Source: Halohasta salina (lineage in GTDB: Archaea > Halobacteriota > Halobacteria > Halobacteriales > Haloferacaceae). Taken from it: a stretch of DNA of 64,000 nucleotides. A program made the position numbers and the translations under genes. The stretch covers positions 620,001 through 684,000 of the forward strand of contig NZ_JAMZIE010000001.1 in the NCBI RefSeq assembly GCF_024178165.1, given 5' to 3'. Positions within the stretch are counted from its first letter, which is position 1; each line of letters begins with the position of its first letter. Below the pieces are notes generated by a model. That model did not search any database, was not told the DNA's origin, and worked only from the letters and a program-made list of their open reading frames with translations. Positions 39,236 through 40,775 of this stretch are shown here, piece by piece.

Positions 39236-39252
39236 CTGAGCCGACAGCTCAG
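39236..39252. repeat. CTGAGC-N5-GCTCAG inverted repeat at the 3' end of the salactin-like gene
   Basis: A perfect 6-bp inverted repeat with a 5-nt loop overlaps the TGA stop at 39251-39249. On the minus strand AT-rich sequence follows, but no run of T. It may shape the 3' end of the transcript. Confidence 0.35.
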
Positions 39253-40319
39253 AGGTTGTCGGCGAGTTTCGCGGCGATCCGCTGGGCACCCTGAGCCGCA
39301 GCAAGATCGGGCCGTTCGGCCGAGACGACGGTGATGTCCCGATCGAGTTCCGCCGAGAGCCGCTCCTCGAAGACCTCTTCGATTCCCGGAATACAGGCCA
39401 TCCCGCCGGTCAGCGCGATCGGCTTGCCGAGGGCGATCTGGTAGGGTTTCATGTGGGTGTTGGCCAACTCCGAGAGGAAGTTGTTGGCGATCTCGTCGAC
39501 TGCCTCGTCGACGTACTCGTCGAGGGGGTCCATCACGCCACGCTCGATAGTGAACTCGTGGGAGCCGCCGCCGGGCTGCTGGATGACATCGGTAAACGGC
39601 TCGAAGTTGTTGAAGTCGCCGTGTTCCTCCTTGTACTCGCGGGCGGTCGTGAGGTCGATGTTGACCCGCCCCTGTGTCTCCTCTTCGACCGCGTTGGCGA
39701 TCCGGCGGTCGACCTCGCCGCCGGTGACCGCACCGGTCGAAAAGGGTTCGAGCTGTTCGGCGTGGCGGTAGGCACAGGCTTCGAGGTTGGTCGAACCCAT
39801 GTTCACAGCCACGAACACCTCGTCGATGGCTTCGAGCCCGTCGCCCATCGCCGGGACGGCCCCACAGAGGGACTCGGGGAAACTCCGGACCTGCTGTTTG
39901 CCGATCGGGCTGTTTTCGATCACCTCGGTGAGGTTTTCGAGCCCCTCGTCGTTGTCGATCGTCGGGATCGCATAGACGACGACGCTGTCTTCGGGGATGT
40001 CCTGTGCGCGGACCAGTTCCCTGAAGAACTTGGCGGCCAGCTCCGCTCGGTCGTCGTCCTCCGGTAGGCCCGAGCGGAGCATGAACTCCACCGTATCGGG
40101 GAACTCCTGGGCGGCCTGCTCGCCGTAGAGAACCTTCTCCTCGCCGGTGATGGCGTCCTCGTAGGTCGCCAAACAGGTCAGCGTCCGAACCGTCTCCATC
40201 TCGCCGTTCTTCGGGTACTGGAGGACCGTCCGGGTGCTGCCGAGTTTGACGCCGACAGGGGTTATCTCGCTTGCTTCACTCGTGCCGTCGAACGCGTCGT
40301 CTTCGGTATCGTCTGCCAT
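39249..40319 (-). CDS. Salactin-like actin/MreB-superfamily protein
   Basis: The 356-residue actin-fold protein matches, from memory, the haloarchaeal salactin group, a filament former described in Halobacterium. The phosphate-1 block is VGVKLGSTRT at about residues 22-31, phosphate-2 is VAVNMGSTNLEA at 170-181, and the adenosine motif is LTGGMACIPG at 303-312. The Asp normally found in both phosphate loops is replaced by Lys25 and Asn173. The N-terminal 20 residues are acidic and probably disordered. It follows a FlaD/E-domain gene by 12 nt on the same strand. Confidence 0.78.
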   Translation of the reverse strand: MADDTEDDAFDGTSEASEITPVGVKLGSTRTVLQYPKNGEMETVRTLTCLATYEDAITGEEKVLYGEQAAQEFPDTVEFMLRSGLPEDDDRAELAAKFFRELVRAQDIPEDSVVVYAIPTIDNDEGLENLTEVIENSPIGKQQVRSFPESLCGAVPAMGDGLEAIDEVFVAVNMGSTNLEACAYRHAEQLEPFSTGAVTGGEVDRRIANAVEEETQGRVNIDLTTAREYKEEHGDFNNFEPFTDVIQQPGGGSHEFTIERGVMDPLDEYVDEAVDEIANNFLSELANTHMKPYQIALGKPIALTGGMACIPGIEEVFEERLSAELDRDITVVSAERPDLAAAQGAQRIAAKLADNL

Positions 40320-40331
40320 GGTTAGTGTGGG

Positions 40332-40775
40332 TCACAGCGACGCCAGCGTGGCGACATACAGCAGGCTGAGACGGTGATCACCCATCGTGAACGACCGGTC
40401 GTGGGCCGGCTCCGGGAACTCGTCGACCGAATCGCTGAGTTCGATGGCGACCGCCGGCGTGATCCACCGCAGCCGCCGGTAGTACTGGATCGCCCGCTCG
40501 GTTCGGTTGCGCCCCCCGACGTGAACGAGGAAGTCGAGCCATTCCGTTCGGAGCCCGGCTCCGAGCTCCGAGTCGGGAAGGGCCGTCAGGAACGGCCGGG
40601 TGAGCTGATCGAGTTGCTGGCGTTTCGACTGGAGCGCCAGCAGCTGTCGAAACTGCTCGTCGCGGATCGACTCGTCGGGTTTCGGTCCCGTCGCTCCTGA
40701 TCGGTCCTCGACCGGCTCCGCGCCGGCCAACTCCCGGAGTTCGGCCGCGTCGTACTCCCGTGGGTTGACTGTCAT
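40332..40775 (-). CDS. FlaD/FlaE-domain protein, likely partner of the salactin-like protein
   Basis: The 147-residue protein has an N-terminal charged, Gln-rich helix (DEQFRQLLALQSKRQQLDQ). It is followed by an archaella accessory FlaD/E-type domain: LTALPDSELGAGLRTEWLDFLVHVGGRN, then AIQYYRRLRWITPAVAIEL. The WL-[DE]-FLV-x6-RN and YY-x4-WI pattern is that of PF04659. No archaellum genes are in the window. It is the first gene of the two-gene unit with the actin homologue, so a role as adaptor or membrane anchor is plausible inference. Confidence 0.72.
   Translation of the reverse strand: MTVNPREYDAAELRELAGAEPVEDRSGATGPKPDESIRDEQFRQLLALQSKRQQLDQLTRPFLTALPDSELGAGLRTEWLDFLVHVGGRNRTERAIQYYRRLRWITPAVAIELSDSVDEFPEPAHDRSFTMGDHRLSLLYVATLASL

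Follow-up and report, generated by a model that had tools for sequence, protein, structure and literature searches.

ParM/ParR plasmid segregation relies on an actin with a small adaptor encoded alongside it. Salactin, an actin homologue of haloarchaea and among the few from archaea to have been examined in vivo, forms dynamically unstable filaments that emerge from the cell poles of Halobacterium salinarum, and MamK is reported to be its closest relative (PMC10746226). H. salinarum deleted for salactin shows no motility defect and a DNA-distribution defect at low phosphate; the synteny around the gene was found to be poor, even within Halobacterium (PMC10746226), and the neighborhood had been reported as uninformative. 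ArlD (FlaD) is known from the archaellum. In Haloferax volcanii, ArlD-GFP forms polar foci, the small ones sometimes traveling from pole to pole, and deletion of arlD abolishes archaella and motility (PMC6509185). Our literature search found no paper linking ArlD to salactin or describing an arlD-salactin gene pair.

The stretch of DNA analyzed here, called the window, spans 64,000 nucleotides of a contig of Halohasta salina and encodes a small FlaD/E-domain protein directly followed by salactin (Table 1). Both open reading frames and the gap of 12 nucleotides between them are as described in an earlier note made from the sequence alone, and the FlaD/E-type domain that it proposed was recovered in a Pfam scan, where PF04659 (Arch_fla_DE) matched residues 60-145 (E=1.9e-16, 60.2 bits, cut-off 21). 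The FlaC domain PF05377 was not matched in this 147-aa protein; ArlCE is a separate protein, encoded on contig C23. The 356-aa protein was assigned to salactin by both PF25229 (E=7e-184, 610.9 bits, cut-off 27.1) and the NCBIfam equivalog model NF053533 (591 bits, cut-off 400), and it aligned over its full length with 34 relatives, with a mean column identity of 69% and conserved Gly-rich positions. The short gap suggests that the two genes form one transcript. They are flanked by genes that the Pfam scan assigned to an unrelated hydrolase, an HD-domain protein, a TPR protein, and an M48 protease.

Table 1. Features of the FlaD/E-salactin gene pair, in positions of the window
Feature	Position	Strand	Basis
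ArlD-type protein with FlaD/E domain (147 aa), leading gene of the pair	40332..40775	-	PF04659
N-terminal motif NPREYDAAELR, residues 4-14	40734..40766	-	conservation in relatives
Variable linker, residues 17-59	40599..40727	-	alignment and AlphaFold2
FlaD/E domain, all-helical, residues 60-146	40338..40598	-	Pfam and AlphaFold2
Intergenic gap, 12 nt	40320..40331	-	ORF coordinates
Salactin, actin homologue, 356 aa	39249..40319	-	PF25229 and NF053533

The partner had been taken for an undescribed adaptor, newly recruited to the actin. This view is rejected in light of the gene order in Haloferax and the copy number in genomes, both of which point to the haloarchaeal ArlD type. In Haloferax (locus L040, H. 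elongans), the order is a csmR-like HTH gene, a DUF gene, cheY, cheC, cheD, the FlaD/E gene, and salactin, and the gene after salactin lies on the opposite strand. In H. volcanii, in which our model search detected a salactin, cheY, cheC, and cheD are HVO_1207, HVO_1206, and HVO_1205 (PMC2841640), and a transcription unit has been named 'ArlD/HVO_1202' (PMC13286277). Because the next Haloferax gene is on the other strand, the FlaD/E and salactin genes fit this two-gene unit, and hence the partner would be ArlD and, judging by gene order, HVO_1202 would be the salactin homolog. The Halohasta genome is without any other ArlD. Very probably, then, the partner is the haloarchaeal ArlD or its direct descendant, the H. 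volcanii locus tag having been assigned by gene order and not by sequence. A tree of the domain was poorly resolved and had salactin-linked and unlinked ArlDs mixed within genera, as would be the case if a single gene lineage had acquired or lost the linkage, but a tree of 111 columns resolves little. The attempt to separate salactin-linked from archaellar ArlDs in this way was abandoned, as the columns were too few.

The ArlD-type protein has a conserved motif at its N-terminus, with the family consensus M-x-[IV]-[ND]-P-R-x-Y-D-x-x-E-L-R (also written MxINPRxYDLDELR). Residues P5, Y8, D9, E12, L13, and R14 are invariant or nearly so in an alignment of 38 relatives, and AlphaFold2 predicts, with low confidence, a short helix at residues 10-16. 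The linker that follows ranges from 40 to several hundred residues across the family; in the window protein its pLDDT is about 46-67, and residues 33-52 are predicted to form a helix. Residues 60-146 are confidently predicted by AlphaFold2 to adopt an all-helical fold (pLDDT mostly 90-98), for which the PDB holds no solved structure resembling the partner, either by sequence or by predicted fold. The N-terminal motif was considered as a salactin-specific docking site, and this was unsupported: the PxxYDxxELR signature is retained in the ArlDs of genomes without salactin, as well as in archaellum-less species. A second small FlaD/E protein found in Haloferax (L040:13437-13880) shares its N-terminal motif with the salactin-adjacent partner, and the counterpart of this second protein in genome G076 (L126:4471-4929) is encoded directly downstream of a salactin gene.

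Of 394 Halobacteria genomes, 188 have a salactin that scores above the cut-off. To survey the pairing, we examined 147 salactin loci, drawn from 145 haloarchaeal genomes in 33 genera, and counted a FlaD/E domain at a distance of at most 1.3 kb as adjacent. This neighborhood, which the earlier note proposed to check, is kept across haloarchaea: a FlaD/E gene adjoins salactin at 122 loci, 119 of them with the gene upstream on the same strand, and adjacent genes occur in 30 of the 33 genera. Within the family to which the window belongs, 64 of the 65 Haloferacaceae-type loci are paired, and the exception (genome G382) has a broken salactin. In its 3.04 Mb, the host has PF04659 in just two genes, ArlCE and the salactin neighbor, so an adjacency at 122 of 147 loci is far above chance. 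When all open reading frames within 5 kb on either side of salactin were clustered (71 loci, 28 genera), FlaD/E was the only family near salactin in nearly all genera (27/28), the runner-up reaching 9/28 with salactin itself and antisense shadows excluded. At the unpaired G382 locus (L190), salactin is apparently split into two frames, and that genome is without archaellin, ArlCE, and CheF.

The adjacency is not obligatory, as the two genes are non-adjacent in g26, the one genus without a FlaD/E neighbor in the clustering, which is probably Halobacterium. There, the gene that best fits the partner profile is in tandem with ArlCE (L155, L160), as expected for an ArlD unlinked to salactin. That the pair was missed earlier would follow from the fact that the published work on salactin (PMC10746226) examined Halobacterium, the probable main exception. 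Other non-adjacent cases are g53 and g66 (5 kb away), some of the loci in g37, g44, g50, and g56, and additional copies of salactin, and ArlD is present without salactin in several lineages. The pair occurs in several arrangements. G076 encodes two salactins with different FlaD/E neighbors, located just downstream of one salactin (L126) and upstream of the other (L191); in g56, salactin has three FlaC-FlaD/E (ArlCE-type) genes around it (L106, L123); and the FlaD/E gene is convergent with salactin in G111 and divergent from it in G165. These arrangements indicate that the adjacency was re-created repeatedly. Hyphal haloarchaea of the Actinarchaeum and Halocatena type were also seen to carry second, unpaired copies of salactin (L047, L048, L049, L105).

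The pair is independent of the archaellum locus. No archaellum genes were found within the window, and the host archaellum cluster (ArlCE, ArlH, ArlI, CheC, CheY, and archaellins) is on contig C23. The earlier note's remark that no archaellum genes are near applies to the window and to many other genera, with ArlCE often 0.5-2.7 Mb from the pair on the same contig, circularity ignored (e.g., G041, G115, G229, G370, and G006), but it does not extend to Haloferax, Halobellus, and related genera, where ArlCE is about 7-14 kb away. The pair also survives the loss of archaellum genes. Four hyphal genomes of the Halocatena/Actinarchaeum type, two of them Halocatena pleomorpha and Actinarchaeum halophilum, have just one FlaD/E gene, which immediately precedes salactin, and no archaellin, CheF, or ArlCE over the cut-off. 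This clade was reported to be archaellum-less and non-motile, with an expanded MreB-like family (PMC10067837). The pair is likewise kept without ArlCE and CheF in G291, where the sole archaellin trace is a broken remnant, in G337, and in G391, whose genome is 81% complete. It follows from this survival that the pair has a function independent of the archaellum.

These observations bear on the strongest alternative, in which salactin is an accessory of the archaellum; in swimming species, its filament would be what positions or segregates the motor and the ArlD pre-complexes, ArlD being cargo and not an anchor. Salactin and ArlCE do co-occur strongly: ArlCE is present in 178 of 188 salactin genomes vs 122 of 206 others (Fisher odds ratio 12, p=6e-18, relatedness uncorrected). 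In addition, Haloferax and its relatives have the pair next to cheYCD and not far from ArlCE, the g56 salactin sits among ArlCE-type genes, and small ArlD foci sometimes shift between poles (PMC6509185). However, genomes without ArlCE and CheF retain the pair, and the H. salinarum salactin mutant swims normally (PMC10746226), which speaks against a pure motility role. We regard an accessory role as possible but doubtful.

We have little doubt that arlD and salactin are functionally coupled. Our preferred reading, to which we give a probability of roughly 55%, is that of a conserved pair in which ArlD would act as a polar adaptor that docks or nucleates salactin. This is the simplest model, as salactin filaments are polar in H. 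salinarum and ArlD is polar in H. volcanii, two different species. ArlD would assemble at the cell pole, salactin filaments would dock on it or nucleate from it, and the dynamically unstable filament would then grow outward from the pole. In swimming species the same adaptor may also serve the archaellum motor, and non-motile lineages may have kept it with salactin alone. What the analysis shows is the pairing, its breadth, its independence of the archaellum locus, and its survival once archaellum genes are lost; that ArlD and salactin touch, with what polarity, and which of them places the other is inferred. For the mechanism itself, polar anchoring or nucleation, rather than capping or regulation of the filament, is about an even bet. 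The earlier note had the small protein position or cap the filament; a role with the filament is plausible, as the pair is conserved and exists without an archaellum, and nothing favors capping over anchoring or nucleation.

It is also conceivable, if improbable, that the two genes are only co-regulated, sharing a promoter since the two proteins both work at the poles of motile rods, with no physical interaction. Indeed, the whole ArlD/HVO_1202 unit of H. volcanii responds to deletion of csmR (PMC13286277). Pure co-regulation is nevertheless disfavored because the pair outlives the archaellum genes; it has also outlasted relocations, and distinct FlaD/E genes adjoin salactin in upstream, downstream, convergent, and divergent positions.

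Outside Haloarchaea, salactin has other neighbors. In genomes that we take to be of an Archaeoglobaceae-like family, salactin is followed by a coiled-coil protein at 12 of 14 loci, with a ParA/MinD-type ATPase at 11 of 14, several loci being cut by contig ends. Salactin, the coiled-coil protein, and the ATPase are encoded in a row at loci L225-L229 and L231-L238 (e.g., L226:4908-7429), most loci having all three, and some of the salactin loci in this family have T2SSE/T2SSF genes (type II/IV secretion, pilus) beside them. The coiled-coil protein has a conserved KWDxLFxEL-like N-terminus and an invariant SPR[IL]L C-terminus. It showed no homology to FlaD/E (HH probability 0.1), and when compared for FlaC homology it gave a weak, coil-like match to ArlCE (30%). 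The four Methanocella-like salactin loci (L221-L224) lack a FlaD/E gene; an archaeal A24 prepilin peptidase is encoded downstream of salactin at three of them and a CarboxypepD_reg surface-type protein upstream at all four.

The least probable of the alternatives is a segregation system of the ParM/ParR kind, with ArlD as the adaptor that joins the salactin filament end to the chromosome or to polar DNA: the low-ploidy DNA-distribution defect of the salactin mutant (PMC10746226), the presence of an actin and a small adaptor within one apparent operon, and the ParA/MinD-type ATPase encoded with the Archaeoglobaceae-like salactin are in its favor, but the Pfam scan gave no DNA-binding domain in the partner, the predicted fold of the partner is unlike any solved structure, and ArlD already has an archaellum role (PMC6509185).

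Gene order by itself suggests a wider theme, namely, that salactin is associated with polar or pilus-type machinery. A more speculative extension of the polar-adaptor reading, which we consider rather unlikely, is that ArlD is at root a polar anchor of an archaeal actin and more than a component of the archaellum. Salactin would then belong to an older polar positioning family, served by a coiled-coil protein and a ParA/MinD ATPase in the Archaeoglobaceae-like genomes and by ArlD in Haloarchaea, and the archaellum motor would share the same platform.

From a biological perspective, the pairing names ArlD as a candidate polar anchor for an archaeal actin and bears on how archaeal poles are defined. 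If ArlD does anchor salactin, there would be a link between the archaeal cytoskeleton and the archaellum's polar platform. As ArlD-GFP fusions and arlD deletions have already been made in H. volcanii, this candidate is directly testable.

Finally, the locus can be set against the systems already described. With ArlD/FlaD of Haloferax volcanii and Halobacterium salinarum, the partner shares the FlaD/E domain and the N-terminal motif, and in Haloferax the place after cheYCD; it differs in that, in the window and in many genera, its gene immediately precedes salactin and is remote from the archaellum genes, and in that hyphal species keep an ArlD-type gene without an archaellum. The salactin of the window is of the same family as VNG0153C of H. 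salinarum by both the Pfam and NCBIfam models, whereas in the probable Halobacterium genus the gene is not beside FlaD/E and conserved synteny was reported to be lacking. Similar to ParM/ParR, the pair combines a dynamically unstable actin (dynamics: PMC10746226) with an adjacent gene for a small adaptor. Unlike in ParM/ParR, the salactin partner is a helical FlaD/E protein with no DNA-binding domain detected, and the pair is chromosomal and widespread. MamK-MamJ and crenactin-arcadin are also prokaryotic actins with dedicated partners, and those partners are not known to be related to ArlD. Both protein families of the window were already known, and the new point is the conserved arlD-salactin pair.
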